From NCBI RefSeq assembly GCF_032118995.1, contig NC_092665.1, positions 8,179,501 to 8,243,500 of the forward strand: a stretch of DNA of 64,000 nt, given 5' to 3'. The translations under genes and the position numbers were made by a program. This DNA is from Asterias amurensis (taxonomy: Eukaryota; Echinodermata; Asteroidea; Forcipulatida; Asteriidae). Below the pieces are notes generated by a model. The model did no database searches. It saw only the letters and a list, made by a program, of their open reading frames with translations, and was not told the DNA's origin. Below are positions 3,958 to 58,378 of this stretch, one piece after another; the first letter of the stretch is position 1, and each line of letters starts with the position of its first letter.

Positions 3958-6900
3958 GTGAGATGTTTGGAGCCATCACAAAAAGGTCAAAGAACAAAAG
4001 GTAACAACGTAACGTACCGTCTCAATGACACATCATTTATTCAGTGAAACATTACAAGCTGATCGTCCGTTTCAAATAAAACATTACTTATTCTGTGAAA
4101 AAGCAGAATGACTGAGTATACTCTCAGCAAAACAATTATACTCCCCTGTATCCTCTACAGGTTTATCATAAAACTTAGCAAACGTCGATGATCTCGACCA
4201 TCCTGCAGCTTTCATGATTGTTGCAAGTGGTACACCTTTCCTTGAAGCTGCACTACATGCAGCTGCCCGTGTACTGTGGGCGGTAAATTTGTCCGTCCTT
4301 ATACCTGCATCTGAAAGTCCTAGCTTTATCCATCTGCCTATCGTTTCTGACCCCACTGCTTTGTGGGGTGGTACATAACTTAGAAAAAGTTTCTTTTCTC
4401 CACCTCTGACAGATTTAGTTTTCTCAAGATAAACTTTTAAAACACTCGTAGCACAAAGTAAATGATCATGAGGGTAAGCAATTAAATCAACTTCTGCATG
4501 AGGTTTACCAACTCTACTTGTTTTGGTAAGTGCCTCGATAGTAAATTTAACAGAATTTGCCCTAACTTGGGCTGAATTAATGTTCATAAAAGATAGTGTC
4601 TGGCAACGTTGCCCCGATGTAAGGGCAGTAAGAACTACCAGTTTCATGGTAAGCTTTTTCAACGAGAGTCCCTCATTAGAACCGAGAGTTCTTAAATAGT
4701 CCAGCACCACAGTCGCATCCCATGTATGTGAGTATCGAGCCTTTGGTGGTCTCAGATTGAACACCCCTTTCATCAGTCTCTTAACCAATGGATGAGAGCC
4801 CACTGTGACGCCCTCAAGCGTCGGGATCACTGCCGACAAGGCACTTCTGGTAATGTTTGAACAAATTGTGGGGTTAAGTTTCCACTCGAGATCATCCCGA
4901 AATTGTCGGGATGCCGTGTCTGCCAGAATATTTTGCACACCAGGGAGGTGTGAACTGGACAGCCAAATTTTCCGTGCCATGCACCATAGCCAAATCTCCC
5001 TAGCTAAGGAATGTAGCAGTTCGGATCCCGAGCCACCAAAGTGTTTTAGGAAAGCAACCACCGTAATGTTGTCAGATTTAAGGTGGATTGAAACACCGTT
5101 TTCTTCTGAGAAGAATGATTGCAATGCTAATGAGCAAGCCTTTAACTCAAGCCAATTGATATGATGAGTGGCTTCACATTTTGACCATCTGCCGCCTGTT
5201 GTGCGACCGTTGAAATGTGCCCCCCAGACCAAGCTGGAAGCATCAGTTTCTATTACGCAATTAGGGTCATGTCTATGCATGGGAGCAAAAGTTATTGGCA
5301 GTTCATTTATCCACCAATTTAAATCACAAATACCTTCTTTGGTAAAGCTCATTTTTGCTTCAAAATCGCCATTATGTTCTGATAATGCCAGGTTCTTCTG
5401 GTTTTCTATTGTTCTTCTAAACAATGGCCCATACGGTACCGCCAGTTCACACGAAACCAACAGACCGATTATCCTGGCAACGTCTCGAATTGTCGGAGAC
5501 TGTTGGCGTAAAAGTTTACGGATTGAGTAAATAATGCTCTGTACCTTTGCAGGTGGGACAGAGAAAGTCATTTGATCTGAGTCTAAATGAAATCCCAAAA
5601 AATCTATCTGTTTGGTTGGGGTAAGAATTGACTTTTTGTAATTTATTGTAAACCCTACCCCATTGGTGAGAATGGTTCGGGCTCGAACATTGCAACAGCA
5701 TTCCTGAAACGTTCTTCCAATAAGAAGGGAATCGTCAATATAGTCACACGATTCACGAGGCAACCAGTGGTTTCATTACTTTCGTAAACACACGTGGGGC
5801 ACCCGTATCAGTTGAATTGCCGTGCGGATAGTTTCCATTTTAAAATGAAAATACTCCACAAATTTGTGAAGCCCCTTCAGATTTATTATAGGGCGAGACG
5901 AACCATCCTTTTTTGGCCGAATGAAAATATTCGAAATAAATTCACCTTCGACGTGGTTCGTTTTTACTATTGCTCTTTTATCGAGCAATTTGGCAATTTC
6001 AGAGGTTATAATTTCAGCCTCGTGTGGTTCACACTGCAAATCCCTTGGAATGCGTGTTTGGTATGGCCTTTTAGTGAATTCAATATGATAGTGCTGAACA
6101 GCGTCGAGCACCCATTGATCAGACGTAATCTCGCGCCATTGGGCTATATGATATGCGAGTTTACCTGCCATAAATAATTTCGCAACTTGATTTTGAGTAT
6201 TATCACATTTGTGCTCACTCACCGTTTTACAAGGTTTTACTTGGTTGCGGTTTGTTGCCGTGTTTCTGCTGGCTTTCTCTGTTGCCAGCGTTTTGGGCGA
6301 AAGGAGTTTCCCTGACGCGTTTGCCCGCCACGATGGGAAAAAGTCTTGGCATTTCCCCTTTGCCTGCCGCGATCCGAAAACGAGTGGAAAACTGTTGGTT
6401 TAAGTCGGGCTTTATGAGTTCTCTTCGCCGGAAGTTCAACTCGGTGGTTGCATGGTCAATTATGGCCAATGCATCCAGTAGGTTTGTTACCAAAACCTTG
6501 TGATCCAGGCTTTTATTGGTGCTCATTAGAGCCTCAATGCAGGTTACAATAGGCACCATGCCTTTCAGCGCCACCTGCTCAACCTTTTGTAACTTGATGT
6601 CCATTGATCTTGTCTTTGATTGCAAAGAATTCCATATTTCTGGATTAACTCTGGTACAATCAAGTTCTGGAATGTTACATGGTCGCTTGAAACTATTAAG
6701 TTTTTCTGCAACCTTCACTTCTGATGATTTGTGTCGGAGTAACTTGCTGATAACACCGGCCAACTTCTCGTCAACTTTGGCACCTGTATCCTCTTCGGAG
6801 TAGAATTGCTCTACCACGCTGAGTACCCCGGCTGATGAATTATCACCAGCGTCGGGGGTTTTAGGAGGTTGTTGATGAGCTGGTCAGTCGCAAGAGAGTC

Positions 6901-10070: not shown

Positions 10071-10291
10071 AGCAGAGTCTAAGACCATGAAGCAGAGTCT
10101 AAGACCATGAAGCAGCATCTAAGACCATGAAGCAGAGTCTAAGACCATGAAGTAGAGTCTAAGACCATGAAGCAGAGTCTAAGACCATGAAGTAGAGTCT
10201 AAGACCATGAAGCAGAGTCTAAGACCATGAAGCAGAGTCTAAGACCGTAAAGCAGAGTCTAAGACTATGAAGCAGAGTCTAAGACCATGAA
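10071..10291. repeat. 20-bp minisatellite, about 11 copies
   Basis: The unit is AGCAGAGTCTAAGACCATGA with scattered single-base variants (GTAG, CATC, GTAA, CTAT). No reading frame is kept, since 20 is not a multiple of three. Confidence 0.95.
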
Positions 10292-11397
10292 GACTGTGTC
10301 TGAAACGGCTCCTATAGGTATGGCTATGGCTAGATGTCTACATTATCATGTGGCACCAGCCTTAGCCATAATCGTAGCCACCAATTCAGATATGGCCAAA
10401 GACTCTGCTAAGTGGAAAATGAACCAGACATAAAACATGAACCTCCCTGAATCATGAGAATACACAGCTTATTGTTGGAGTCACAATAGAGTAATTATTT
10501 TGTATATGAAAGTAAAGACACAGTATAGACCCACTGCGTATGACGTCTTACTCTCAAAAACGGGGCAGATCATTGAACAATAGCTGTTCTCTGTGCGTAA
10601 AAACGGCGCCTGACCTCATCATACCTGTAGCGTTTCACATTTATGCAAGTGGGAGCTATTGAATTCTTAAACAATACAGTAACAGCCTCCAAACAATGCA
10701 CCTAACTTTGGGTGTCAACTCTCTTTTGTATACGATTTTGACCCAAAATGACACAAACAATAGGTAAATGTCAGTATTCTGCGCGTATTGCAAGGGGTCT
10801 ATACATGTATGTGTGGTCACATTCTAATCTAAAATGTTCAACAAAACTTTAAATTAAAATGTTAACGAGTAAAACCTACTTGAATGAAAACGATCAGTCG
10901 TGATCTTCGCTGAATTTCATTCAAAATATTTACAGTCAATAAGGAAATTGAGTCAAACGAGTATAAATAGATTTTAACTGCAAAAAGAAAATTGTGTACT
11001 ATTTTGAATCCATTGCTTTTCTGAAAGATCCTCGAAAAGCTGTTACATCATCACTTTTGTAACATTATTACTTGGGAGCTCCAATTTGTATAGCCGCTTT
11101 AATGCAGCATGGAGGTATAACAATAGCAAACTCCCACACATGACGTCAAAGCATTGTCGTTTTAATGCACGCCGTCAATGGCAGATGTGTTTCTAATTTT
11201 TTCAAAACCTTGAGGTTGGGACCTGATTTTCTAATTGATTTTTATCAAATATTCAGAAGTGTACAGTTAACAAAATGACATTTAAATTTAAAAAAACACG
11301 ATATAAACAAGTTTTAATAGCATTTACATCAAAAGTTATTTGTTTAAGCACTTCCTTAACTATGCTGATTTTGAAAGACAAATTTCACTGATTCCAT
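10292..11397. other. No gene; probable ACOT7 3' UTR and downstream DNA
   Basis: This lies directly beyond the ACOT7 stop on the minus strand. A weak ATTAAA signal on that strand sits near 11313-11318. I see no other coding signal. Confidence 0.35.
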
Positions 11398-11514: not shown

Positions 11515-14500
11515 CTGGAGTAAAACAAAATAAAGGGAAAAGGTTGTGGTATTGTCTCGACTTGGAGATTAAATCAACGCTCATGACTTATTTATCGTAT
11601 CATTGGGGATTTCAATCTACCAAACATTAAATGGGAAAATCATCAAATCAGCAACAGAAATGGATACAACACAGCCGCTGCAAAAAAGCTAGTTTCCCTC
11701 ACTGAAGAATATGGTCTGTTCCAACATGTGAATCAAGCAACTAGAATCCAAGGTGACACAATAGAGAACATATTGGATCTCGTATTCACAAACAAACCCA
11801 ACCTGATTAAGAGACTCTCTTTAACTGATGGACTGTCAGATCACAACACAATTATTGTCGAGTTCAACATGGCTCCTAAGCTAAAACGTCGACCAGAACG
11901 CACAATGTTCATTCCAAGTAAAGCAGACCAAACAGGTACCAGAACGCACAATGTTCATTCCAAGTAAAGCGGACCAAACAGGTACCAGAACGCACAATGT
12001 TCATTCCAAGTAAAGCAGACCAAACAGGTACCAGAATGCACAATGTCATTCCAAGTAAAGCAGACCAAACAGGTACTAGAACGTACAATGTCATTCCAAG
12101 TAAAGCACACCAAACAGGTACCAGAACGCACAATGTTCATTCCAAGTAAAGCAGACTAAACAGGTACCAGAACGTACAATGTTCATTCCAAGTAAAGCAG
12201 ACCAAACAGGTACAAGAACGCACAATGTCATTCCAAGTAAAGCACACCAAACAGGTACCAGAACGCACAATGTTCATTCCAAGTAAAGCAGACCAAACAG
12301 GTACCAGAACGCACAATGTTCATTCGAAGTAAAGCAGACCAAACAGGTACCAGAACGTACAATGTCATTCCAAGTAAAGCACACCAAACAGGTACCAGAA
12401 CGCACAATGTTCATTCCAAGTAAAGCAGACTAAACAGGTACCAGAACGTACAATGTTCATTCCAAGTAAAGCAGACCAAACAGGTACAAGAACGCACAAT
12501 GTCATTCCAAGTAAAGCACACCAAACAGGTACCAGAACGCACAATGTTCATTCCAAGTAAAGCAGACCAAACAGGTACCAGAACGCACAATGTTCATTCC
12601 AAGTAAAGCAGACCAAACAGGTACCAGAACGCACAATGTTCATTCCAAGTAAAGCAGACCAAACAGGTACCAGAACGCACAATGTTCATTCCAAGTAAAG
12701 CAGACCAAACAGGTACCAGAACGCACAATGTCATTCCAAGTAAAGCAGACCAAACAGGTACCAGAACGCACAATGTTCATTCCAAGTAAAGCACACCAAA
12801 CAGGTACCAGAACGCACAATGTTCATTCCAAGTAAAGCAGACTAAACAGGTACCAGAACGTACAATGTTCATTCCAAGTAAAGCAGACCAAACAGGTACA
12901 AGAACGCACAATGTTCATTCCAAGTAAAGCACACCAAACAGGTACCAGAACGCACAATGTTCATTCCAAGTAAAGCAGACCAAACAGGTACCAGAACGCA
13001 CAATGTTCATTCCAAGTAAAGCAGACCAAACAGGTACCAGAACGTACAATGTCATTCCAAGTAAAGCACACCAAACAGGTACCAGAACGCACAATGTTCA
13101 TTCCAAGTAAAGCAGACTAAACAGGTACCAGAACGTACAATGTTCATTCCAAGTAAAGCAGACCAAACAGGTACAAGAACGCACAATGTTCATTCCAAGT
13201 AAAGCAGACCAAACTGGTACCAGACACACAATTTTCATTCCAAGTAAAGCAGACCAAACAGGTACCAGAACGCACAATGTTCATTCCAAGTAAAGCAGAC
13301 CAAACAGGTACCAGAACGCACAATGTCATTCCAAGTAAAGCAGACCAAACAGGTACCAGAACGTACAATGTCATTCCAAGTAAAGCACACCAAACAGGTA
13401 CCAAAACGCACAATGTTCTTTCCAAGTAAAGCAGACCAAACAGGTACAAGAACGCACAATGTTCATTCCAAGTAAAGCAGACCAAACAGGTACCAGAACG
13501 CACAATGTTCATTCCAAGTAAAGCAGACCAAACAGGTACCAGAACGCACAATGTCATTCCAAGTAAAGCGGACCAAACAGGTACTAGAACGCACAATGTT
13601 CATTCCAAGTAAAGCAGACCAAACAGGTACTAGAACGCACAATGTTCATTCCAAGTAAAGCAGACCAAACAGGTACCAGAACGCACAATGTTCATTCCAA
13701 GTAAAGCAGACCAAACAGGTACCAGAACGCACAATGTTCATTCCAAGTAAAGCAGACCAAACAGGTACCAGAACGCACAATGTCATTCCAAGTAAAGCGG
13801 ACCAAACAGGTACTAGAACGCACAATGTTCATTCGAAGTAAAGCAGACCAAACAGGTACTAGAACGCACAATGTTCATTCCAAGTAAAGCAGACTAAACA
13901 GGTACCAGAACGCACAATGTTCATTCCAAGTAAAGCAGACCAAACAGGTACTAGAACGCACAATGTTCATTCCAAGTAAAGCAGACCAAACAGGTACTAG
14001 AACGCACAATGTTCATTCCAAGTAAAGCAGACCAAACAGGTACCAGAACGCACAATGTTCATTCCAAGTAAAGCAGACCAAACAGGTACCAGAACGCACA
14101 ATGTTCATTCCAAGTAAAGCAGACCAAACAGGTACCAGAACGCACAGTGTCATTCGAAGTAAAGCAGACCAAACAGGTACCAGAACGCACAATGTTCATT
14201 CCAAGTAAAGCAGACCAAACAGGTACCAGAACGCACAATGTTCATTCCAAGTAAAGCAGACCAAACAGGTACCAGAATGCACATGGTTCATTCCAAGTAA
14301 AGCAGACCAAACAGGTACAAGAACGCACAATGTCATTCAAAGTAAAGCACACCAAACAGGTACCAGAACGCACAATGTTCATTCCAAGTAAAGCAGACCA
14401 AACAGGTACCAGAACGCACAATGTTCATTCCAAGTAAAGCAGACCAAACAGGTACCAGAACGCACAATGTTCATTCCAAGTAAAGCAGACCAAACAGGTA

Positions 14501-17500
14501 CCAGAACGCACAATGTTCATTCCAAGTAAAGCAGACCAAACAGGTACCAAAACGTACAATGTCATTCCAAGTAAAGCAGACCAAACAGGTACCAGAACGC
14601 ACAATGTTCATTCCAAGTAAAGCACACCAAACAGGTACCAGAACGCACAATGTTCATTCCAAGTAAAGCAGACTAAACAGGTACCAGAACGTACAATGTT
14701 CATTCCAAGTAAAGCAGACCAAACAGGTACAAGAACGCACAATGTCATTCCAAGTAAAGCAGACCAAACAGGTACCAGAACGCACAATGTTCATTCCAAG
14801 TAAAGCAGACCAAACAGGTACCAGAACGCACAATGTTCATTCCAAGTAAAGCAGACCAAACAGGTACCAGAACGTACAATGTCATTCCAAGTAAAGCACA
14901 CCAAACAGGTACCAGAACGCACAATGTTCATTCCAAGTAAAGCAGACTAAACAGGTACCAGAACGTACAATGTTCATTCCAAGTAAAGCAGACCAAACAG
15001 GTACAAGAACGCACAATGTTCATTCCAAGTAAAGCAGACCAAACAGGTACCAGAACGCACAATGTTCATTCCAAGTAAAGCAGACCAAACAGGTACCAGA
15101 ACGCACAATGTTCATTCCAAGTAAAGCAGACCAAACAGGTACCAGAACGCACAATGTCATTCCAAGTAAAGCAGACCAAACAGGTACCAGAACGTACAAT
15201 GTCATTCCAAGTAAAGCACACCAAACAGGTACCAGAACGCACAATGTTCATTCCAAGTAAAGCAGACCAAACAGGTACAAGAACGCACAATGTTCATTCC
15301 AAGTAAAGCAGACCAAACAGGTACCAGAACGCACAATGTTCATTCCAAGTAAAGCAGACCAAACAGGTACCAGAACGCACAATGTCATTCCAAGTAAAGC
15401 GGACCAAACAGGTACTAGAACGCACAATGTTCATTCCAAGTAAAGCAGACCAAACAGGTACTAGAACGCACAATGTTCATTCCAAGTAAAGCAGACCAAA
15501 CAGGTACCAGAACGCACAATGTTCATTCCAAGTAAAGCAGACCAAACAGGTACCAGAACGCACAATGTTCATTCCAAGTAAAGCAGACCAAACAGGTACC
15601 AGAACGCACAATGTCATTCCAAGTAAAGCGGACCAAACAGGTACTAGAACGCACAATGTTCATTCCAAGTAAAGCAGACCAAACAGGTACTAGAACGCAC
15701 AATGTTCATTCCAAGTAAAGCAGACTAAACAGGTACCAGAACGCACAATGTTCATTCCAAGTAAAGCAGACCAAACAGGTACTAGAACGCACAATGTTCA
15801 TTCCAAGTAAAGCAGACCAAACAGGTACTAGAACGCACAATGTTCATTCCAAGTAAAGCAGACCAAACAGGTACCAGAACGCACAATGTTCATTCCAAGT
15901 AAAGCAGACCAAACAGGTACCAGAACGCACAATGTTCATTCCAAGTAAAGCAGACCAAACAGGTACCAGAACGCACAGTGTCATTCGAAGTAAAGCAGAC
16001 CAAACAGGTACCAGAACGCACAATGTTCATTCCAAGTAAAGCAGACCAAACAGGTACCAGAACGCACAATGTTCATTCCAAGTAAAGCAGACCAAACAGG
16101 TACCAGAATGCACAATGTTCATTCCAAGTAAAGCAGACCAAACAGGTACCAGAACGCACAATGTTCATTCCAAGTAAAGCAGACCAAACAGGTACCAGAA
16201 CGCACAATGTCATTCCAAGTAAAGCAGACCAAACAGGTACCAGAAGGCACAATGTTCATTCCAAGTAAAGCAGACTAAACAGGTACCAGAACGCACAATG
16301 TTCATTCCAAGTAAAGCAGACCAAACAGGTACCAGAAGGCACAATGTTCATTCCAAGTAAAGCAGACCAAACAGGTACCAGAACGCACAATGTCATTCCA
16401 AGTAAAGCAGACTAAACAGGTACCAAAACGCACAATGTCATTCCAAGTAAAGCAGACCAAACAGGTACTAGAACGCACAATGTTCATTCCAAGTAAAGCA
16501 GACCAAACAGGTACTAGAACGCACAATGTTCATTCCAAGTAAAGCAGACCAAACAGGTACCAGAACGCACAATGTTCATTCCAAGTAAAGCAGACCAAAC
16601 AGGTACCAGAACGCACAATGTTCATTCCAAGTAAAGCAGACCAAACAGGTACCAGAACGCACAGTGTCATTCGAAGTAAAGCAGACCAAACAGGTACCAG
16701 AACGCACAATGTTCATTCCAAGTAAAGCAGACCAAACAGGTACCAGAACGCACAATGTTCATTCCAAGTAAAGCAGACCAAACAGGTACCAGAATGCACA
16801 TGGTTCATTCCAAGTAAAGCAGACCAAGCAGGTACAAGAACGCACAATGTCATTCAAAGTAAAGCACACCAAACAGGTACCAGAACGCACAATGTTCATT
16901 CCAAGTAAAGCAGACCAAACAGGTACCAGAACGCACAATGTTCATTCCAAGTAAAGCAGACCAAACAGGTACCAGAACGCACAATGTTCATTCCAAGTAA
17001 AGCAGACCAAACAGGTACCAGAACGCACAATGTTCATTCCAAGTAAAGCAGACCAAACAGGTACCAAAACGTACAATGTCATTCCAAGTAAAGCAGACCA
17101 AACAGGTACCAGAACGCACAATGTTCATTCCAAGTAAAGCACACCAAACAGGTACCAGAACGCACAATGTTCATTCCAAGTAAAGCAGACTAAACAGGTA
17201 CCAGAACGTACAATGTTCATTCCAAGTAAAGCAGACCAAACAGGTACAAGAACGCACAATGTCATTCCAAGTAAAGCAGACCAAACAGGTACCAGAACGC
17301 ACAATGTTCATTCCAAGTAAAGCAGACCAAACAGGTACCAGAACGCACAATGTTCATTCCAAGTAAAGCAGACCAAACAGGTACCAGAACGTACAATGTC
17401 ATTCCAAGTAAAGCACACCAAACAGGTACCAGAACGCACAATGTTCATTCCAAGTAAAGCAGACTAAACAGGTACCAGAACGTACAATGTTCATTCCAAG

Positions 17501-20500
17501 TAAAGCAGACCAAACAGGTACAAGAACGCACAATGTTCATTCCAAGTAAAGCAGACCAAACAGGTACCAGAACGCACAATGTTCATTCCAAGTAAAGCAG
17601 ACCAAACAGGTACCAGAACGCACAATGTTCATTCCAAGTAAAGCAGACCAAACAGGTACCAGAACGCACAATGTCATTCCAAGTAAAGCAGACCAAACAG
17701 GTACCAGAACGTACAATGTCATTCCAAGTAAAGCACACCAAACAGGTACCAGAACGCACAATGTTCATTCCAAGTAAAGCAGACCAAACAGGTACAAGAA
17801 CGCACAATGTTCATTCCAAGTAAAGCAGACCAAACAGGTACCAGAACGCACAATGTTCATTCCAAGTAAAGCAGACCAAACAGGTACCAGAACGCACAAT
17901 GTCATTCCAAGTAAAGCGGACCAAACAGGTACTAGAACGCACAATGTTCATTCCAAGTAAAGCAGACCAAACAGGTACTAGAACGCACAATGTTCATTCC
18001 AAGTAAAGCAGACCAAACAGGTACCAGAACGCACAATGTTCATTCCAAGTAAAGCAGACCAAACAGGTACCAGAACGCACAATGTTCATTCCAAGTAAAG
18101 CAGACCAAACAGGTACCAGAACGCACAATGTCATTCCAAGTAAAGCGGACCAAACAGGTACTAGAACGCACAATGTTCATTCCAAGTAAAGCAGACCAAA
18201 CAGGTACTAGAACGCACAATGTTCATTCCAAGTAAAGCAGACTAAACAGGTACCAGAACGCACAATGTTCATTCCAAGTAAAGCAGACCAAACAGGTACT
18301 AGAACGCACAATGTTCATTCCAAGTAAAGCAGACCAAACAGGTACTAGAACGCACAATGTTCATTCCAAGTAAAGCAGACCAAACAGGTACCAGAACGCA
18401 CAATGTTCATTCCAAGTAAAGCAGACCAAACAGGTACCAGAACGCACAATGTTCATTCCAAGTAAAGCAGACCAAACAGGTACCAGAACGCACAGTGTCA
18501 TTCGAAGTAAAGCAGACCAAACAGGTACCAGAACGCACAATGTTCATTCCAAGTAAAGCAGACCAAACAGGTACCAGAACGCACAATGTTCATTCCAAGT
18601 AAAGCAGACCAAACAGGTACCAGAATGCACAATGTTCATTCCAAGTAAAGCAGACCAAACAGGTACCAGAACGCACAATGTTCATTCCAAGTAAAGCAGA
18701 CCAAACAGGTACCAGAACGCACAATGTCATTCCAAGTAAAGCAGACCAAACAGGTACCAGAAGGCACAATGTTCATTCCAAGTAAAGCAGACTAAACAGG
18801 TACCAGAACGCACAATGTTCATTCCAAGTAAAGCAGACCAAACAGGTACCAGAAGGCACAATGTTCATTCCAAGTAAAGCAGACCAAACAGGTACCAGAA
18901 CGCACAATGTCATTCCAAGTAAAGCAGACTAAACAGGTACCAAAACGCACAATGTCATTCCAAGTAAAGCAGACCAAACAGGTATTCAACATGCTCTGAA
19001 TTACTTCCTTAAGGAGTATATGTCTTCTGCTTTGGATATGTCAGTGGATGACAAATGGAACATGATTGCCACCAAAATCACTGAAATAATGAACAAATTT
19101 GTCCCTACCCGCATGACCTCATCAAGACACAACCTACCAGGGTTTACAAAGGACCTAAAAAATAATATGTAAACTTGAAAAACGGTTGTACAAGGCAAAG
19201 AGAACAAATCTTCACAGTGACTGGCAGAAGTCTTGTGACGCAAGGAAAATCATCCACAAGAATCTCAAATCTGCTCAATCCACATACATCAGTGAATTCT
19301 TGACATCGACCATTACAGAAAAACCAAAGTCATTTTGGAACTTCATCTCCAAACTCTGACAAGACAACAAGGCATTGGTGACCTTTACAATGAAGGGAAC
19401 ATCATTAGTGAGGACGCGCAGAAAGCAGACATTCTAAACAATCAGTTCAAAAGTGTCTTCACTGAAGAGGGATCCTCTACAATGCCAGATACGGGGGAAA
19501 GCCCATACGGATCAATCGGGAAACTCATCATCTCACTTAAAGGGGTCAAAGACCAACAACTTAAGATAAACCCATCTAAATCACAAGGACCAGACGGTAT
19601 CCCACCTTGGTTTATAAAAACATTTGCAGATCAACTAGCACCAATTCTTCAGGACTTGTTTCAGTAGTCAACCGACTCGGGCCAAGTCCCCAAAGGTTGG
19701 AAGGAGGCCAATGTTACGGCATTATTCAAAAAGGGAAGTACATGTAGAACGGATCCTGCGAATTATAGACCAGTTTCATTAACACCAGTCTCCAAACTCC
19801 TTGAACACATTCTACATAGTCACATTATGAAACATTTTGAAGAACATCAAATACAGATTATCAACATGGTTTGTGTGCTAAAAGTTTGCTTCAAGAAAAG
19901 TCACCCCCACCAGCTATACCTTTTGTGGCAAACAACTAGAATCTGTGGAATCTCACAAGTAGCTTGGCGTTCATATCACCAACACATTAAACTGGTATGT
20001 TCAAACAGCTTCAGTTACTTAGAAAGCCCAACAAGTACTTGGTGTCATCAAAAGGAACCTCAACAAATGCCCTGTTCATGTAAAATCACTAGCCTACACA
20101 AGTTTGGTTTGTCCCATCCTAGAGTATGCCACAGCAGCATGGGACCCACATAGTAAAAAGAACTGTCAAGCCCTGGAAAGAATTCAAAGACAAGCAGCTC
20201 GCTTCACCACAAATAATTACAGTAGAACGCTAGGTACAGTCACCAGTATACTAGAAGAACTTAGCTGGAAACCACTAGAAATAAGAAGGAAAGCTAGAAG
20301 ACTAGCTATGTTTTACAAACTTGTTAATAACTTAGTTGAAATCCCTCTTGAAGACTTTGCACAACATTCCACTCGACCCTCAAGAAAACACAGACTCCAA
20401 TTCCATCAAATTTGTCACTCAACCAAAATCTACAGCAACAGTTTTTTTCCGGCCACCTTTAAGGACTGGAACGCCTTACCCGGTAGTGTGATTTCCAGCA

Positions 20501-23500
20501 ACTCATTAGATATCTTCAAAGACACTCTCGCTAAGCACTTCAAAAATCAAGCCATCCCATCCACACAATGCGCAAAGCTGGTGTGATGTGTCTTTAGGCA
20601 TTTTTTTGCAGGCTCAACAATACAGATACAGATACAGGTATTAATAATCATTAGATGAGATTTTTTATACAGGGCTTATAACACTTGTAACAGCCACTAA
20701 TGCTGCTCTCACACTGTGGCGAATATTCTTGAGAATAATGAATATTTCAATTTCGCGGTGAATTCGCCAAAAAATTGCGATTGTATAGTGAAAATTTTCA
20801 TCTTCATCATCCCTCCGTTGTCCCTCGACCTCTTCTCACCAATATCTTACGACACCTCCCAAGGGCGATATGCCATTAATATTCGCAAGTTTGTCTAGGA
20901 GACTTTTGCAATACATTCTTAATGGCACTTTGAAAAGAACACCCGTTCGCAAGCATTGGTTACCGTTAGTAAGCATTGGCAATCCATTGGGAAGCGCTCG
21001 TAAACATTGCACATTGCAAATTCTGTAAAATACTGGTAAAGTATTGGTAAACCATTCGTAAGACATTCATAGCACTGGTGAAGCAATGGTAAAGCATTTT
21101 TAACATTTGCAACAGTGGCAAAACATTCGAAAGGAAGTTACAAACGTTAAGAATGTAGAACGTTGACAACACTGGGTAGCTTGGAAAATCGAAAAAACGA
21201 TGGCGAATTACCGTCTTCACAACATTCGCTGAAGTTTAGGAAACGCTTGTATTGCTGCTCTCACAGAGTGGCAAATGTTCTTTCAAAGATGAATAGTTGA
21301 ATTTCGCGTTGAATTCGTCAAAAATGGTCGTTGGATATTGAATTTTTTCATCTCTGTCTCACCCCTCGATCGTCCACAGTCGGCCCTCTCACCAATATGC
21401 TTACGAACGCTTGCCAATGCCTTTACGAACATTGACAACGCTTACGCACGCTTTACCAATGTGACCAAATTGACGGTGAATGACCGTCTTCGCAACATTC
21501 TCTGAAATTTACAAACCGTTTTCTAAATTGACCGATCTTCATAAGGAGGTGGGGAATAATTTGTAACTGTTCACAATTTGCTGCTGTGTTTCTGGCAGTG
21601 GCTGTATGCCAGTGTACCACACAGCACCTTGTATACCATTGGTAAGGTAAGGTAAGGATCATTTGTTTGCAACCATAAACAGGTTGGATTCGTTATAAAA
21701 ATACATTCAAAGTTAAAAAATACATCACATAAACTGTAAAAAAAGAGAATCTTTATTTACAACTTATAAGGTGCTACATAAATTCACCTCATAATTTAAA
21801 AATATCAACTATGTCTTTTAACTATTATTTAGTTGAAGCACCTTATGAGTACCTTATTGATGGATGTGCACTATATTCAACTCGGGGTTGGTAATTATTA
21901 CACATTGATAACAAGTACTCCAAGGTTTGCATTACCTACATGTAGCGCCCTCTAAAGTAGTCTCATAGGAGAAGCCGTTTTCCAGTGCATCACAAGGAAA
22001 AGGTTTCCACAAGTATTGGTCCAAACTTGGTCCAAACCCAGTTTTTAATTTGTTCGCTCATGAATTGCAGAATAGCTAGGTTGTATTTGTTTGTATTTCC
22101 AACATAAGACGAGGCCAGAGCATGTTAATCACATCCATGTCAGACGACATTTCAAGGTCCTTAACTGCCCAGAGTGCTGCCGAGTTTTTAAACAAAATGA
22201 GTGGAACCTGTAGGAGTTTCAGTAGTTTAGTACATAATCTAACATGAATTCAGGGTGATATTAGTGGAACCTGTAGTAGTTTCAGTAGTTTAGTACCATA
22301 ATCTAACATGAATTCAGGGTGATATTAGTGGAACCTGTAGTAGTTTCAGTAGTTTAGTACCATAATCTAATATGAATTCAGGGTGATATTAGTGGAACCT
22401 GTAGTAGTTTCAGTAGTTTAGTACATAATCTCATATGAATACAGGGTGATATTAGTGGAACCTGTAGTAGTTTCAGTAGTTTAGTACATAATCTAATATG
22501 AATTCAGGGTGATATTAGTGGAACCTGTAGTAGTTTCAGTAGTTTAGTTCATAATCTAATATGAATTCAGGGTGATATTAGTGGAACCTGTAGTAGTTTC
22601 AGTAGTTTAGTTCATAATCTAATATGAATTCAGGGTGATATTAGTGGAACCTGTAGTAGTTTCAGTAGTTTAGTACCATAATCTAATATGAATTCAGGGT
22701 GATATTAGTGGAACCTGTAGTAGTTTCAGTAGTTTAGTACCATAATCTAATATGAACTCAGGGTGATATTAGTGGAACCTGTAGTAGTTTCAGTAGTTTA
22801 GTACCATAATCTAATATGAATTCAGGGTGATATTAGTGGAACCTGTAGTAGTTTCAGTAGTTTAGTACATAATCTAATATGAACTCAGGGTGATATTAGT
22901 GGAACCTGTAGTAGTTTCAGTAGTTTAGTACATAATCTAATATGAACTCAGGGTGATATTAGTGGAACCTGTAGTAGTTTCAGTAGTTTAGTACCATAAT
23001 CTAATATGAATTCAGGGTGATATTAGTGGAACCTGTAGTAGTTTCAGTAGTTTAGTACATAATCTAATATGAATTCAGGGTGATATTAGTGGAACCTGTA
23101 GTAGTTTCAGTAGTTTAGTACCATAATCTAATATGAATTCAGGGTGATATTAGTGGAACCTGTAGTAGTTTCAGTAGTTTAGTACCATAATCTAATATGA
23201 ATTCAGGGTGATATTAGTGGAACCTGTAGTAGTTTCAGTAGTTTAGTACCATAATCTAATATGAATTCAGGGTGATATTAGTGGAACCTGTAGTAGTTTC
23301 AGTAGTTTAGTACATAATCTAATATGAATTCAGGGTGATATTAGTGGAACCTGTCACCTGTAGTAGTTTCAGTAGTTTAGTACCATAATCTAATATGAAT
23401 TCAGGGTGAAACCAAAGTGTTTCCTCAAACATCTCAAACAGAATAGGAAGAAACTTACCTTCAGATGTGGGATGTCTAAAACCTCTTTGTTATTGCTAAG

Positions 23501-46384: not shown

Positions 46385-46620
46385 GACGATATTTGCGATG
46401 TCGCAAATATCTTTGCAAATATTTGCGATGTCGCAAATATCTTTGCAAACATCTTTGCAAATAATATTTGCGATGTCGCAAATATCTTTGCAAATATTTG
46501 CGATGTCGCAAGTATCTTTGCAAATATTTGTGATGTCGCAAATATCTTTGCAGATATTTGCGATGTCGCAAATATCTTTGCAAATATTTGTGATGTCGCA
46601 AATATTATTGCATACTTGAT
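46385..46620. repeat. 30-bp palindromic minisatellite, left array
   Basis: About seven units, each holding the dyad ATTTGCGATGTCGCAAAT followed by ATCTTTGCAA. Because the unit is 30 bp and lacks stops, both strands stay open. Confidence 0.9.
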
Positions 46621-47009
46621 CGCATACTTCTTCGCATAGTTTGCATATTTGTGTCCGATATTTATTCAAGAGCCTAGAAGGTTGTTAGGGTTCCAGCCTT
46701 CATTCCATTACTATGTACACAGCGAGTTGTACTATGTACACAATGAGTTGGTAAAGGCGCTCGTGGTGATAGTCTTTTTTCGTGCATTACATTTTTGCGG
46801 GCTGTGCGTGCTATCCGGTGTGCCGCGTGCGCGCAAGTTGTAATGGCATCAAAAAAACACGGGCGCGGACTGTATCAGACTATCCACCCATGTGTACATG
46901 TTAATGGAATGAAGGCTGGAACCCAAACAACCCTTTAGGCTCTGGAAAAATTTCTCGCCAAAAAATATGCAAATTATGCAACAAAGTATGCGACAAGGTA
47001 TGCGATAAA

Positions 47010-47165
47010 AATGTTCGACATCACAAATATTTGCAAAGATATTTGCAAAGATATTTGCGACATCGCAAATATTTGCAAAGATATTTGCGACATCGCAAAT
47101 ATTTGCAAAGATATTTGCAAAGATACTTGCGACATCGCAAATATTTGCAAAGATATTTGCCATGT
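47010..47165. repeat. 30-bp palindromic minisatellite, right inverted array
   Basis: Same unit in the opposite sense (GCAAAGATATTTGCGACATC), about five units. Confidence 0.9.
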
Positions 47166-48796: not shown

Positions 48797-51700
48797 GTAA
48801 GCATTCAATTAAATGTAGTCATGCATGAACATTTTAAATTGTCCTGCCGTCGATTTCACAAAACTCTTCCTAACTTTAGACTAATCTTAGGACTTGGTCT
48901 GGGACGAGTCCCAACCCTGCACTGTAGCATGCGGACCTTAAGATTAATCCCAAGTTAAGACGAGTTACTCGTCCTAACTCGAGGTAAGACGAGTCCTAAC
49001 TCTTTGTGAAATCGACCCCTGGGATGTAAACTTGGCCTTGGGGTCTTAAAAAAGAAAACACTTTAAGTTGTTGATCTTCGACACATAAAAAGGACTGTAC
49101 AGACTGTAGTTTGGAGCCCGCAATTTTTTTTTTCTAAAGACGCATAAATGCGTATTGTGTGGATGGGATGGGTGAATATTTGAAGTACTTCAAGTGAGAG
49201 AGTCTTTGATTTGAAAATGTCTAACTAATGAGATGCTTGAAAAAAACTGCTGTCGTAGATTTGGGTTGTGTGACGAAGTTGATGGAACCAAAGTTTGTGT
49301 TTCATTCATGTACATGTATCCGTTTGCTACTCCTAGAACTATGCGATTTCGTTTCGCTATCAAGATGATAGCAAAGCGAAATCGCATAGTTGTAGGAGTA
49401 TCCATTTGCTATATCATAGTAAAAATTAATTATGTAAAAATGTGCGGGACGTAACTTGTTTGAAATGAACAAATGCACTGAGGATTTGAATTTTTTTTTA
49501 ACTTAAATCAGTTCCTTGAGGAACGAGCCAAAGTTGATTTGACTAGCTTTGTTTAAAGAATCAAATTAGGTTAAATTTCTGCCCAGTCGCACTCAGATTG
49601 CGCCATTAATTGTCTATAATGGCGTATCTTAGATATGTGATGAGATTTAGCAAAAAAAACCACCCCTACAAACTCGGCTAACACACATAATTGTTGTTAT
49701 CAATTCAATGTGCGTGTACAACAAAAAGTTGACTTTTTCCAGTTTTGGTTGACAGGTTTTGGATAGACTCCACTACTGAAAGCGAAAGGCCAAAGGGCTT
49801 AAAATACGGGTTTTTTAAATATAAAACCAATTGGACACAGCCAAATAAAAGTGTTGTTTTCGTTGGGTCCTATAACCCGACGATGGCTATTATTTGATAG
49901 CAAGATGAATTTTGACAAACCTTGTTATGCAGCGATATCTTGATTTGATATTGATTACGTCGAGATTGTTCAATAGGTTTGTCAATGTTTATTGGTTAAT
50001 GTTGACTAGCCTACATGTGTGTAGCCTGTCTCAAGTAATAATAATAGATTCTATGGCCTATAAAAGACAAATTTGGTGCATTCTTGACTATTAAATGCAT
50101 CCCCTTTATACACAATGAAAGCACTCGCTAAAAAATGCACTCACTGAGGCCCCTAGTGCTAGATCCCCTTTACACAATGTATGAATACACTCGCTAATTC
50201 AGTTCAATTCAAAAAAATTTAATCAACCTTTGCAGGCAATTACAACAGTAGACCTGCTCCATACAAATATTAAGAGAAATATACAATATACATTTATTTA
50301 AAAAATATAAAGATTATTTGACAGAATGACATAAGCAGATACGTACAAATGGTTGAAACCACATCAATTAATACAAGTGAATACATGTAAAAACATTAAT
50401 TGAAAAGTACCCTCACTGAGGCCAAATGAGGCACATCTTTGTAATATATAGCAATTTTTCCAACCCGTATTCAGTTTGACAAAATGAATGCACCCCACAT
50501 TTTAAAAGGTGTAGTTTGGATGTACAGAGGACGGATGACCAATTGATACAAAATCCAAAAATCCATTTTCATTACCATGATGGAGATTTGTCCTGATGCT
50601 TGTATTGCACCATACACTAAGTGTGTACAACCGTGTAATGAAGCAGAAACACTATTGTGATGCCATAGCAACTGTTGCTATGCAACCTTCTTTCATGTAT
50701 AAAATAGGTTTCTTGTGGTGATGGTCAACGTTGAATATGAATAGCATGCAGGCATTTCTAAAGTAATAATTCATGAGATAAAAACAAAAAGAAAATTGTA
50801 TTTCATTGGTTAATTTTTCATGTTATGTAAATTTGTCATTTGCAAATGTCTTAACATTTTTTACAAAGTGACATCATTGCTAAATTGTTGTTCAAAATTG
50901 TTTTATGATGTGAATATTTATCAGATCTTTTCTGCTATTTTAAAATGTGCAATGTCTACAGTTGTGCAAATATTGTGTTTTCCTTAAAAACAAACACAGA
51001 ATAGACACACACAAACTCGGCAACCGCTAATTCTCTGAAAATTATAAAAATCCCTTCAAGTGACAGAGAATTATTCATGTACATTGTACAAGTAGACCCC
51101 AAACCTTGACCCTAATGACACAACCTTCCTCGTTATAATGAACGGCCGAAAATGATTATTAGGAAGCCTGAGATATTAAATTGTAAAAGCATTGAGGCAG
51201 TAGTATACATGTTAGACACTGTTCTTTTCAAAATGGAGGATGAATGATGCATCCTTAAAGCCATTATACACTTTCGGTACAGAAAAGAAAGAAAAAAGTT
51301 CACAGATTTACAAATAACTTAGAGGGTTTACAGAAGATAATGGTGAAAGACTTCTCTGGAAATTTTATTCCATGAAATGCTTTACTTTTTGAGAAAACAT
51401 TAAAACAATATAAATTCTCGATAGCGAGAATTACGGATTTATTTTAAACACATGTCATGACATGGCGAAATGTGCGGAAACAAGAGTGGGTTTTCCCGTT
51501 ATTTTCTCCCGACTCCGATAACCGATTGAGCCTAAATTTTCACAGGTTTGTTATTTTGTATCATAATTGTTGTGATACACGAATCTTAGTGTGGGACTTG
51601 GACAATATTGTTTACCGGAAGTGTATAATGGCTTTAAGTCAAATGACAAGGATCTGCATGCCGTTTAAAGGCTTCATGATAAGATGTACAATTTGTCATT

Positions 51701-54700
51701 TTGTAAACAGTAAATTTTTAAACACAGTCTACTTCTTTCAATGTAGGTAGAGGTAGCCATGCTGGTTCGTAGAATAACAGTTTTAGGTCACCAGTGCCAG
51801 ATCATGTCTTAAAATATTTTAAACAAAAATATTGTTCAAGACGGACATTTGTTGTAGCATGTATAGGTCAATGATTGCTCTATATATTTAAAGTCACCTG
51901 GAAGTGGTATTTTTTTTAAATAAAGCTTTTGTCACTAAAATATGTGTTTTTATGAGAGGAATGTGAATAAAAAGTTAAGGTTTAAAAATATTAGTTTTGA
52001 TTGTATTTACAAATTTACGAGTAGGCCCCGACCCGAGAGGGCGCTGTTCATGACGTAATTCAAGGCGCGATATTTGAAGAGAAAATTTGTAGTCAGGCCC
52101 CCGTACATTACGTCTGGGAACATGGCACATCAAAACAAATTTAGACACGATTTTACACACATACGTACATTGAAACTTGAACATGTTGAACGCCTAGTGG
52201 TTTTTACAAAAGCTATTGCTGCTATTTTTATTTAACTATGCGACTTTTTAGTGACCAAATGGGTTGTAAGATGTGGGTCTGCCTACGTATTATTATAGAA
52301 ATACGGCCACGGAGCAGACTGCACGCACGCACTATGGCTGCTGTATAATGTGCGGATGGTCACATAGGACCTGCACACACGGTGAATCGCATGCGATACC
52401 AACAAAAAATCGTGTCACTTGGCAAAAGCTAAAAACATACCCTCAAAGTTCAAACTTACCCGAATTTTTTCACGTTTAGCAAATGCTCCTCTGGGTTCGT
52501 CACGTCTTTCAGATACCTTCTTCGACTTCCCACTAGCTGGAAAAATTGTTGGGACGGCGTCGTGTTTAAGAATGGCTCTTCTCGTCATGTCAAATGAGTG
52601 GTGTATCCCGGATTCGAAGCACGACGGCTCGAAGTGTTCGCTGCATAGCGCTGAAAAAAACGTCGGACCGGACCACTTTGCTAATCTGACTTTCGCAGCC
52701 CACAACCGCCTATACTTGGGATCTGCAGGAAACAGATGAAGACTGACCCCATCTTTAGTTGTTTTGCTGCATCCAGCAGCAATACACCTGGTCGGCATTG
52801 CCGGAAAAATGCCAGAAAAAAAACCTTTTTCGCAGCGTACAAACTCACGTCGTACAAATTACATGTACTTTTGCACGTGTGTTTATCTACGCATCGAGGG
52901 GGGTCTTTGTTTGATCGAGGCAAAGTCTTCCTTTCCCTACGTCACAAAAGGGGTAGGCGGAGTCAACCCCCAAGCACTTAATTAATTTTTTTAACATATA
53001 AATCGTGACAAACAATTACTCAAAAAATTGTTTTATTGTTAATAAACATATACTCTTATGTTTAAAAGAAAAAAATCCTATTTCCAGGTGCCTTTAAATG
53101 TATGCAAATATTCTGAAAAGTTTCGTTTTTTTTTTCCTAAGCCATAAACAGTACTTGTGACTTCTTTTAAAAAAAAAGAGAATATAAAACCATTTAGGAG
53201 CTTTTCTTTTGAGTCCAAGCCAAATTGTAATTTACATCATGACTCGAGCTCAAACAAGAAAATAATGTCTCTTTTTTCCCCCTCTTTTGTTTAAACATTA
53301 ATTGTAAGTTTCAATGTGGCTTTGCTTAAATTAAGGAATTTGGATTATGGTTTAATCGCCAAACCCTAGTTTATAATAGATGTTAAATTTGCATCGTGGA
53401 TAAAGAATATTAATTTTTTTTTTTTACCCATACACCGATGTGTGTTAGCACTGTATACTCAGTACTTTCCCGAGTCCTGTGAAAAAATATCACAGGCATG
53501 TTACTCGGGTAACATATAATTAATAAACCCTAGTTTTGAGTCATCTGACATAAACAAGCGCACTAAAAATGAAAAATTTAATTTCATCAGGCCTACCCAA
53601 TACATAGGCCTACCCCATATATAGGCCTACCCCATACATAGGCCTACCCCATACATAGGCCTACCCCATACATAGGCCTACCCCATATATAGGCCTACCC
53701 CATACATAGGCCTACCCCATACATAGGCCTACCCCATACATAGGCCTACCCCATACATAGGCCTACCCCATATATAGGCCTACCCCATACATAGGCCTAC
53801 CCCATATATAGGCCTACCCCATACATAGGCCTACCCCATATATAGGCCTACCCTATACATAGGCCTACCCCATATATAGGCCTACCCCATATCCCCATAC
53901 GTGTAGAATCAACATGAATATAAACTAGTTTCTGAGAACAAAACATTTGATGGTTTTGTCTTTATTGGAGTGAGATATCAAATTGTCATGCACCAACAAT
54001 TATCACTTTAACAGTTTCAAAGATTAACCCCAACTATTATTATTATTATTATTATTATTATTACTTTGTTTTTATTAAACCATATGAATAAATAGCCTAC
54101 TGAATAATATTTATTAGGCTATTTATTAATTTTATGTTTTTTCCCCCTTCTTTTTTTATGGGGGTGGGGGGGGGGTATTTTTTGTTGATAATTTTAAGGT
54201 GTGGGGATATGACATTGTTGTATTAATATTTGTTCAATAAGCTCTTTTAGTCCTTGACCACTGACTGCTTATTTTTATTCAGATCCTTTGCCTATGAAAC
54301 TACGAGCCTTACCACAGTCCTTTTGGCAACAACCAAATACAGTCAACACAGCACCCCCTGGAGCAATGTATACTGTATTACCACCCGTCTCTAAAACAGA
54401 GCAACCATGTATTGCTGAAATTACAGGTAAGTTTGGGTTTTTTAATGGTCTATTTTCGCATTGTATTGTAGAAATGATCAACATCTTGATGTAAATCGTT
54501 GTAATTGGCTCATCACATCTCACAAGGACAGATTGATAATACTTTATGAAATCCTGATATCTGATTACTATGTATTGGCAAATGAGAGTTCTTGCCTTTG
54601 GCTGTAAAAAGCTGCTCAATAACAAGCATTGACAATTCATCAAGTGTTGCAGCAGCTTTTCATTGTTCATAATTACTACGAATTAAGTTGATAACTTTTT

Positions 54701-56385: not shown

Positions 56386-58378
56386 TCATGTTCATACAAG
56401 GGCCACATTTTGCTGTCAAACTGTGAGCCCTGCTAAATTTAAACAAGAGAAGACCATATATGAACATAATATGGGTTTATTTACAAGTTTCAACGTGTAC
56501 TTAAATGCATGTTAAGATAAGCACAAAGCGCAAACACTAGATGTACAAAATATATGCAGGTTTAGAGGCCACTTATTCGCTAGTTTCCAGGTCTTTACAT
56601 CACATATAATACATCCCCACATGATCAGGTTATGTCAAATTGAAGTTTGGTAACTGTCAAAATTGTTTACCTATAGCACAACGTTGAAATAACTAAGCTA
56701 TCTTTCTTCAATAAGATTATGGATTATAATTGATGTTAAAGAATAGTAATTTTGGTTTTTACCCATACACCGATGTGTGTTAGTACTGTATACTCAGTAC
56801 TTTCCCGAGTCCTGTGAAAAAATATCACAGGCATGTTACTCGGGTGGGATTCGAACCCACCCTTGCAATTCTAGAGCAGTGTCTTAACATCTATTATATC
56901 GTTGCGGTACCCGCTGCCAAAACATAGGATTCGAACTGCCTCTAGCTGCCGGGCAACCTCGGTAGTCTAGTTGGTAAGACACTGCTCTAGAATTGCAAGG
57001 GTCGTGGGTTCGAATCCCACCCGAGTAACATGCCTGTGATATTTTTTCACAGGACTCGGGAAAGTATTGAGTATACAGTGCTAACACACATCGGTGTATG
57101 GGTAAAAACCAAAATTAATATTATGGATTATGTTTAACAATTTTATTCTATTGACAATTTTAATTTGTTCCACCCAGATGTGCGGCCAGTTACACCAACA
57201 TCAGACCAAGAGGCAAAGCAAAGCAAATCAGTGGTGAAATGTGAACGGTTAGAGAGACCTCAAAAAACACATTCACAATTTGATAGGCAAGATACTTGCA
57301 GATCAGTTGAGACATTACAAGATGCATCCAGAGAGGGAGAAACAGACACTCTTGTAAAGGAACGTATCAAACCCAAGCAACTTAAACCTGCAGCTAGAAG
57401 GATCCTAAGAGTATCTGCAACAAGTTCCAACCTTCTTGCTAAGTTATTTGATGGAATAGAAAAAGACAAGAAAAGTAACGTAAACTCATCAATCAAAAGA
57501 GGAAGGTAAGCTGATAAGAAGAAGTCAAATCATTTTAGCAGTCTGACAAATGGTCTCTAGTGGGTCCAAAAGTGTTTTATTTGTTCCGAATCCTGACGTT
57601 TTATTGTATTGTGTTAACCTTGTTTTGTTTTTCTGATTGTCATTAGGAAACCCATTCACATTGTCACCTACAAAGCAAGTTACCTATATGTAGCACCTCA
57701 ATGTCAACACATTCATGATTCTTTTACACAAAACATAACAAATTGATAAAGCAGTGAAAAGGAGAGAATGAATACATTCAGGTTCTAAATGTGACACATT
57801 TTTGTGAAAAACACACAAAGGTGTTACACTGATTGTCGTACCTTTGCAATGAAGTATTAAAATAATTAGACACTCAAGCTGTGCACTGAGTAGCCTACTG
57901 ACATGACTGAACAAGTACCCAACATCTGCATTCATTCATATCAAGTTAATAGACATGCTGGATAAGAGTAGTAAAAACAGCCAAGGTTGAAATGTTTGAA
58001 AGTACCAGTCCAAGATAACATTCCAGTTACAAGCTGTCTTACTCAAGACTAAATGCAAGTGGCCAGTAGGTTTGCTACGTATTTATTGGAGTATTGATGA
58101 ATAAAAGTTCTAACTGTTTGATTGTTCACAGACCTAAGAGAGACTGTTCACAGTCGCATCACAAGCATGTGATTGGTGAAGATCCATATTTGATAGATGC
58201 TGTGGCAGATGGGCTCTTACCACTACTGAGTATTGAATCACATCGACAGAGTGTTGGACCTTCTTCACATCTATCAGTTGTAGCAGTGAAAGATGGCGAT
58301 AAAATGCTAACTTTACCATCATTAAGTATTGAACAAAACTATCCAGCCATGTTGTCAGAGCTTGTCAAAGCATTATAA
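48409..58378 (+). CDS. Unrecognised host gene, complete 4-exon CDS (368 aa)
   Basis: Exons 48409-48796, 54283-54426, 57178-57505 and 58132-58378 join in phase (1107 bp, 368 codons plus stop), each with a clean GT-AG intron. The protein is Ser-, Lys- and Pro-rich and looks disordered. Visible parts: an acidic Ser-rich stretch (SGSSSEGENSDLEDIPPSP), a basic KLKKKIKKN, a conserved-looking exon 2 block (MKLRALPQSFWQQPN), and KRGRPKR at residues 284-290, an AT-hook-like motif formed across the exon 3-4 junction. No enzyme fold or membrane segment is seen. I infer a nuclear, perhaps chromatin-linked protein; the function is unknown to me. A candidate AATAAA lies at 59116. Introns carry TTAA MITEs, minisatellites and an antisense THAP exon. 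Confidence 0.8.
48849..49016. mobile_element. Hairpin MITE, family E, copy 1
   Basis: Ends GTCGATTTCACAAA and TTTGTGAAATCGAC, with internal TAGGAC / GTCCTA and TTAAGATTAATCCCAAG words. Same family as 61208-61367. Confidence 0.85.
49327..49400. repeat. Perfect-type hairpin
   Basis: ACTATGCGATTTCG-TTCGCTATC pairs with GATAGCAAAGCGAAATCGCATAGT around a tiny loop at 49360-49368. Confidence 0.85.
49413..51254. other. Intron 1 of the 48.4-kb gene, no feature
   Basis: AT-rich. I see no repeat with clear ends and no coding signal. Confidence 0.4.
51255..51637 (+). mobile_element. TTAA MITE family C, copy 1
   Basis: TTAAAGCCATTATACACTTT at the left and AAGTGTATAATGGCTTTAA at the right, both with TTAA. 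The body matches 54979-55350 in the opposite orientation (CATGTCATGACATG, CGTTATTTTCTCCCGACTCC). Confidence 0.92.
51638..52459. other. Intron of the 48.4-kb gene; candidate region for further THAP exons
   Basis: Lies beyond the THAP exon donor on the minus strand, where a next exon is expected, but none can be recognised. Confidence 0.3.
52460..52798 (-). CDS. THAP zinc-finger protein, first exon (113 codons)
   Basis: The ATG at 52798 opens a THAP domain: C2CH zinc ligands C5, C10, C52 and H55, the conserved Trp33, and the closing AVPTIF motif at 81-86. THAP domains bind specific DNA and occur in transcription regulators and P-element-type transposases. The exon ends after KIR at a GTAAGT donor, in phase 0; the exons beyond it are not found. 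It lies antisense within intron 1 of the 48.4-kb gene. A domesticated or decaying transposase is an alternative to a regular THAP gene. Confidence 0.85.
53400..53513 (-). repeat. Family F fragment (tRNA-like palindrome relative)
   Basis: ACCCATACACCGATGTGTGT and TTTCCCGAGTCCTGTGAAAA match the outer arm of 56746-57125, ending at the tRNA-like boundary ACTCGGGTAACA. Confidence 0.85.
53589..53892. repeat. 17-bp minisatellite, about 18 copies
   Basis: The unit is AGGCCTACCCCATACAT with an ATAC/ATAT variant. AGGCCT is a self-complementary hexamer in every unit. Confidence 0.95.
54034..54062. repeat. (ATT)n microsatellite
   Basis: About ten ATT repeats, some 220 bp before exon 2 of the unrecognised gene. 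Confidence 0.9.
54283..54426 (+). CDS. Unrecognised gene, exon 2
   Basis: Acceptor TTTTTATTCAG, donor GTAAGT. Encodes PLPMKLRALPQSFWQQPNTV and a TVLPPVSKTEQPC stretch, the most conserved-looking part. Confidence 0.85.
54979..55350 (-). mobile_element. TTAA MITE family C, copy 2
   Basis: Inverted relative to 51255-51637, with TTAA at both ends and the same CATGTCATGACATG core (as its complement). Confidence 0.92.
55433..55479. repeat. Short perfect hairpin
   Basis: AAATGTATTTTCCTAAT and ATTAGGAAAATACATTT flank a 13-bp AT loop. Confidence 0.9.
56211..56280. repeat. Hairpin, GC-rich
   Basis: GTTGGTGCCTGGCCGCTGT pairs with ACAGCGGCCAGGCACCAAC around a 32-bp loop. Confidence 0.9.
56355..56382. 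repeat. Poly-T tract
   Basis: 28 T in a row; possibly the reverse of a retroposon tail, but no body is recognised next to it. Confidence 0.8.
56746..57125. repeat. Family F palindrome with a tRNA-like unit in each arm
   Basis: The arms 56746-56900 and 56975-57125 are inverted copies. Each carries CATACACCGATGTGTGT, CCCGAGTCCTGTGAAAAA and a tRNA-like block. It lies in the third intron of the unrecognised gene, just upstream of exon 3. Confidence 0.88.
56956..57027 (+). tRNA. tRNA-like sequence (probably SINE-type, not a working tRNA gene)
   Basis: A box TAGTCTAGTTGG and B box GGTTCGAATCC are intact; D stem GTCT/AGAC and T stem GTGGG/CCCAC pair. The acceptor stem has two mismatches and the anticodon stem two, so a functional tRNA is unlikely. 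An inverted partial copy is at about 56840-56890. Confidence 0.45.
57178..57505 (+). CDS. Unrecognised gene, exon 3
   Basis: Acceptor TTGTTCCACCCAG, donor GTAAGC. Charged residues dominate; ends with KRG and two bases of an Arg codon. Confidence 0.85.
58132..58378 (+). CDS. Unrecognised gene, exon 4 (terminal)
   Basis: Acceptor TTGTTCACAG. Starts by completing Arg then PKRDC; includes a DPYLIDAVADGLLPLLSIE helix-like stretch and ends SELVKAL-stop. Confidence 0.85.

Follow-up and report, generated by a model that had tools for sequence, protein, structure and literature searches.

A 64,000-nucleotide stretch of the Asterias amurensis genome (hereafter the window; contig NC_092665.1, positions 8,179,501 to 8,243,500) contains a degraded, truncated, and inactive long interspersed nuclear element (LINE) in which a tandem array of 155 short units sits in the linker between the endonuclease and the reverse transcriptase (RT). 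The 46-bp unit is itself LINE coding sequence from this linker (RPERTMFIPSKADQTG), and other copies of the LINE hold it once. Our results make it very probable that a 46-bp stretch of the open reading frame (ORF) of a passive, dead LINE was duplicated in tandem and that the resulting array was then enlarged in place, putatively by misaligned exchange, with two block duplications as the latest steps. The LINE and the array are arranged as follows.

11553 to 11891, + strand: 5′ part of the truncated LINE, with the rest of the endonuclease domain and the start of the linker (similarity to the C16 genomic copy starts at 11553; Pfam)
11892 to 18983, + strand: array of 155 units of 46 or 45 bp, of which unit 1 (11892–11937) is read in the LINE frame
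18984 to 20586, + strand: continuation of the LINE up to a provisional 3′ limit, with linker, damaged RT region, and C-terminal region, carrying stops and frameshifts (frame resumption; comparison with the C16 and C7 genomic copies)

Tandem Repeats Finder (TRF), run on the window, reported a repeat of period 46 at 11892–18984 (155.0 copies, 95% matches, score 13045), and segmentation of the array arrived at the same number of head-to-tail units, 155, of which 117 measure 46 bp and 38 measure 45 bp. Position 18983 closes the last full unit; the A at 18984 is the first base beyond it and coincidentally equals the first base of the unit. The most frequent unit type accounts for 60 of the 155 units, and the pairwise difference over all units averages 1.84 edits, or ~4% per site. 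The KpnI site GGTACC is present 120 times within the array. The 45-bp units lack one base, the T of a TT pair in the column assignment made in this analysis. Units of this length, arranged head to tail, fall in the minisatellite range (about 10–100 bp).

Since 46 is not a multiple of three, the LINE frame is not maintained from unit to unit, and every + frame of the array carries stops (65, 59, and 67). The original prediction, made from the sequence alone, had described about 155 copies of a 46-bp monomer that is protein-coding when read in the LINE frame. Both TRF and the segmentation agree with the copy number; the in-frame reading holds for unit 1 but breaks down across the units. We conclude that the array does not code for protein and that no function is evident for it. 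Retention of the array for a function, be it as a coding repeat or as regulatory or structural DNA, is the least probable of the explanations that we considered: nothing was found in its favor, and against it stand the stops in all three + frames, the 45-bp units, variants that fall at every codon position of the unit-1 frame, and the occurrence at one locus only. A search of the array against Rfam gave no match, and its folding was only weakly above that of shuffled sequences (z about −1.8). The stop counts, the codon positions of the variants, Rfam, and folding thus lend no support to a role of the array as coding sequence, RNA, or structural DNA.

The LINE that hosts the array was examined on both sides. 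In the upstream piece, the Pfam domain Exo_endo_phos_2 matches 11602–11937 (E 1.4e-12), and this piece contains GDFNLP and SDHN residues that we take to be typical of such endonucleases. The upstream LINE frame reads ...MAPKLKRRPERTMFIPSKADQTG into unit 1, and the downstream frame picks up again as ...IPSKADQTGIQHALNYFLKEYM, so that the array is bordered on both sides by its source element. Genomic relatives with open frames of up to 1,193 amino acids matched over the endonuclease and the linker in a protein search of the genome. Pfam returned nothing meaningful on the downstream LINE pieces, where RT and C-terminal motifs were recognized by eye only. An APE-type non-LTR retrotransposon would have an endonuclease domain and then an RT in a single ORF; of these, Pfam identified the endonuclease here, and the RT is a candidate. 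Near 19884, the LINE of the window lacks about 480 bp that are present in the C16 copy (476 bp) and in the C7 copy (485 bp). A comparison of the two end regions of the LINE for a target-site duplication yielded a single 8-bp match, at non-matching ends. The genome report gives LINEs as 0.25% of the A. amurensis genome (PMC10625585).

Two further LINE sequences were noted in or near the window. A second fragment of the 3′ region of the same or a related LINE lies at 49149–49302 (− strand; 81–84% identical, in two pieces), and a relative (L030, G000:C18:8150680-8151186; 48–49% identical to the query) with a reported open frame of 1,170 amino acids is found ~28 kb ahead of the window. No confirmed relatives were found in viral contigs, prokaryote genomes, phages, plasmids, or solved structures, collections that are mostly non-animal, and this result therefore carries little weight.

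Next, we considered how many units belong to the LINE itself. When k units were kept between the flanks (k = 0 to 6), the LINE frame was open across the site for k = 1 only; the downstream frame also resumed for k = 4, yet with a stop inside. The close copy C16 holds one unit: its local alignment scored 935 with one unit and 843.5 with none, and the scores fell to 909, 886, 863, and 840 with two to five units. In the C16 copy, a short deletion directly precedes the unit, and 6 of the 46 positions of that unit deviate from unit 1. A protein (tblastn) search of the genome returned 51 matches, 30 of which were covered by a reading at the DNA level. Among these 30 loci, L028 and L031 are the window's own flanks, L046 and L051 repeat loci already counted, and L045 and L052 have no single match that spans the site, which leaves 24 distinct spanning loci, C16 included. 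All 24 have about one unit's length at the site, and over query residues 86–132 the largest insertion was three and the largest deletion five amino acids; the 24 include near-identical copies and do not represent 24 independent lineages. Spanning matches by their nature exclude long inserts, since a long insert would split the match, and the non-spanning loci were therefore checked too: the serial unit hits by which the array is recognized occurred in L028 and L031 only, and not in L045 and L052. At the DNA level, the match to the C9 copy starts within the unit and extends, interrupted by small gaps of its own, beyond the right edge of the site, which is thus the only edge that it covers, and the C7 copy begins downstream of the site.

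The genome searched (G000; 23 contigs, 491,506,623 bp) contains the unit nowhere else at up to two mismatches. A 26-base unit pattern, allowing up to two mismatches, matched 155 times in the forward orientation and never in reverse, and the same pattern read backwards gave no match. The window alone accounts for 155 matches, all on the + strand between 11911 and 18957; every genomic match therefore lies in this array. The single C16 unit differs from the pattern at more than two positions and hence was not counted. So far as the assembly shows, the array has not spread: it is a single-locus minisatellite of 7.1 kb, and a satellite family, with its numerous or very long arrays, was not found.

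These observations bear on whether a ready-made minisatellite array might have been inserted into, or captured by, the LINE. Transposable elements (TEs) of other genomes are reported to contain tandem arrays and to spread them (PMC12628747, PMC6947457), but here one unit is native to the LINE in all spanning loci, the unit is found nowhere else in the assembly at up to two mismatches, and the left and right flanks join the array at the same unit phase. By our reasoning rather than by computation, an inserted array would show the same flank phase by chance about once or twice in 46. We therefore regard insertion or capture as very improbable. Instead, the frame test, the C16 copy, the spanning loci, and the uniqueness of the array bear out the proposal of the original prediction that a single segment of LINE coding DNA, entered by the upstream frame and left by the downstream one, expanded in place and is carried once by other copies. 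That proposal would have been undermined by more diverse arrays elsewhere without LINE flanks, and the 491.5 Mb searched contain none at up to two mismatches to the unit. The locus was also presented as the birth of a satellite; birth from a mobile element stands, but "satellite" is too strong for a single-locus minisatellite that has not spread.

The internal structure of the array records how it grew. We rendered the array as a string of unit types and compared block scores with those of 200 shuffles of the unit order. Two nested block duplications stood out, with scores of 54 (55-unit block) and 27 (40-unit block) against a maximum of 12 in the shuffles. A third high row, at a lag of 95 units (score 27), is the sum of both lags, and the remaining rows scored below 12. 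The block copies are as follows.

12486 to 14316, + strand: older block, copy 1, 40 units (units 14–53), 1831 bp
14317 to 16147, + strand: older block, copy 2, units 54–93 (14 edits from copy 1)
13950 to 16466, + strand: youngest block, copy 1, 55 units (units 46–100), 2517 bp
16467 to 18983, + strand: youngest block, copy 2, units 101–155 (one edit from copy 1), its end coinciding with the array edge

The scored core of the 40-unit block differs by 11 edits in 1740 bp. Removing both blocks leaves 60 units with a mean difference of 2.06 edits, so that 95 of the 155 units come from the two block events. Divergence is about 0.04% for the 55-unit block, 0.8% for the 40-unit block, and 4.5% for the residual units. 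Unless the divergences were reset by conversion between units, this ranking gives the order of growth: about 60 units, then a further 40-unit block, then a further 55-unit block. In the residual 60 units, the best signal (lag 15, score 6) reaches the highest value among 300 shuffles (95% point, 5) and does not exceed it, and earlier growth steps are therefore not separable. The LINE itself sets a scale for these values: it differs from the C7 copy by 39 mismatches in an 804-column alignment (21 gaps) and from the C16 copy by 85 mismatches in a 1307-column alignment (99 gaps). On this scale, the start of the expansion may lie early in the history of this LINE insertion.

We propose the following sequence of events, in which the LINE would serve as a passive source of sequence. 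A single tandem duplication of the 46-bp linker stretch, its joint sharing 1 bp of homology or none, would have come first. In-register exchange between misaligned partners (unequal exchange of sisters or homologues) or a comparable recombination-dependent repair would then have enlarged the array in place to about 60 units, and the duplication of a 40-unit block would have been followed by that of a 55-unit block. At the first joint, homology amounts to 0 bp on the left side and to 1 bp on the right, so the unit is not explained by any earlier short repeat with a 46-bp spacing.

Inspection of the flanks revealed a 9-bp direct repeat that brackets the array.

11863 to 11871, + strand: left TTCAACATG member of the pair
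18985 to 18993, + strand: right TTCAACATG member of the pair

These are the only two copies of TTCAACATG on the + strand of the window; one further copy lies on the − strand, at 52182. Such a pair could have given rise to the array by replication slippage or exchange, as in the Haber and Louis model (PMC3389668, PMC6947457), and Ahmed and Liang describe direct repeats of 5–20 bp at 300 TE-derived arrays (PMC3389668). A 9-bp pair within flanks of 30–40 bp occurs at 1.4–2.1% of random sites in the window, larger arrays excluded, in a test devised after the pair had been seen. The C16 copy, however, lacks the exact pair, and with the array collapsed to one unit the two members would by arithmetic lie 76 bp apart and predict a unit of that length rather than of 46 bp. 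Slippage between the flanking copies as the direct source of the unit does not fit this spacing, and we consider birth at the pair in any form unlikely. Given the spacing and the C16 copy, we leave the pair as an unexplained lead.

Several points weigh against growth in place from a native unit, in the order given above. First, C16 is the sole close copy to cover both edges of the site at the DNA level, and expansion in place was judged from paralogues within one genome rather than from orthologues in another individual or species. Second, the ordering by divergence presupposes that units have not converted one another. Third, simple slippage at the bracketing 9-bp repeat would not give the 46-bp unit. 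Lastly, the 55-unit block stops exactly at the array edge, which would be rare for a randomly placed crossover, and this coincidence possibly reflects another mechanism or an assembly fault. An artefact of assembly, affecting the 55-unit duplication or the array length generally, would also fit the exact run of 2156 bp that the two 55-unit copies share. On the other hand, the genome was sequenced from HiFi fragments of ~15 kb and assembled with hifiasm according to PMC10625585 (if the same assembly is meant), so that 7.1 kb fits into one read, and the exact sequence shared at the joint of the 55-unit block amounts to 30 bp (29 left, 1 right), which is short for a false long-read overlap. An artefact is therefore improbable in our view, slightly more so than birth at the flanking repeat.

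Minisatellites also occur elsewhere in the window. The largest of these, at 22200–23409, lies outside the LINE and has about 19 copies of a 63/64-bp unit; two of its units, searched against the genome, matched nine times, always within this same array. Two others are at 10071–10292 (20 bp × 11) and 53589–53891 (17 bp × 18). With at least four minisatellites in 64 kb, array birth here need not rely on LINE sequence. A cluster of 30- to 72-bp tandem repeats at 46389–47160 contains ATATTTGC and its reverse complement. Outside the repeats, we noted a 559-amino acid ORF with a tyrosine recombinase domain (4084–5763, − strand; Phage_integrase, E 3.6e-8), presumably part of a DIRS-type element, a THAP-domain ORF (52415–52798, − strand; E 5.9e-16), and a match to transfer RNA (56956–57028, + strand; Rfam, 48.1 bits).

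A single locus thus preserves the ancestral single unit together with the LINE on either side, and it also shows in which order the last two expansions took place. We tentatively suggest, as a possibility close to balanced, that the array is a time-ordered record of whole-block jumps (~60 to 100 to 155 units) whose last jump, with one edit in 2517 bp, is still segregating in living animals. If true, satellite birth would be traceable across individuals. For this species, a second assembly (PMC11090083) and resequenced males and females (PMC11757944) are in print. Published long-read and resequencing data for A. amurensis could reveal whether expansion continues, in which case a general model of TE-born tandem arrays could be followed step by step.

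Arrays born from TEs are known from other genomes. Ahmed and Liang (2012) attributed 7,276 human minisatellites or satellites to TEs and counted 300 with short direct repeats on their flanks; of the 6,817 arrays that had neither flanking repeats nor a truncated end unit, most consisted of just two units (PMC3389668). The array described here resembles these in that tandem units from part of a TE grew by local duplication, but it differs in having 155 units, a non-vertebrate LINE as its source, and a readable block order. According to a 2022 review, any part of a TE may act as a satellite source, and satellites related to LINE ORF2 include PROsat (Phodopus, L1), Pvc20 (Phoca, L1), and HinfI/SCR1 (chicken, CR1) (PMC9659126). 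Our array, like these, has sequence in common with LINE coding sequence; unlike these satellite DNAs, it consists of one 46-bp unit at one locus with the source LINE on both sides. Satellites of Lathyrus are reported to have expanded from short arrays inside Ogre long terminal repeat (LTR) retrotransposons (PMC7004042). There, too, a tandem array in a retrotransposon was lengthened, but the short arrays were already present in the dispersed elements, whereas here other copies have one unit and the array is found in one dead copy. Human and mouse minisatellites have been described from Alu, B1, and MaLR elements (PMC6947457), likewise from part of a retroelement, with the difference that the source in A. 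amurensis is a LINE ORF and not a short interspersed nuclear element or an LTR. TE-derived minisatellites, LINE ORF sources included, are therefore already known, and the principle is not new; the merit of this locus lies in a growth record that can be read from the array itself, with two block jumps in order.

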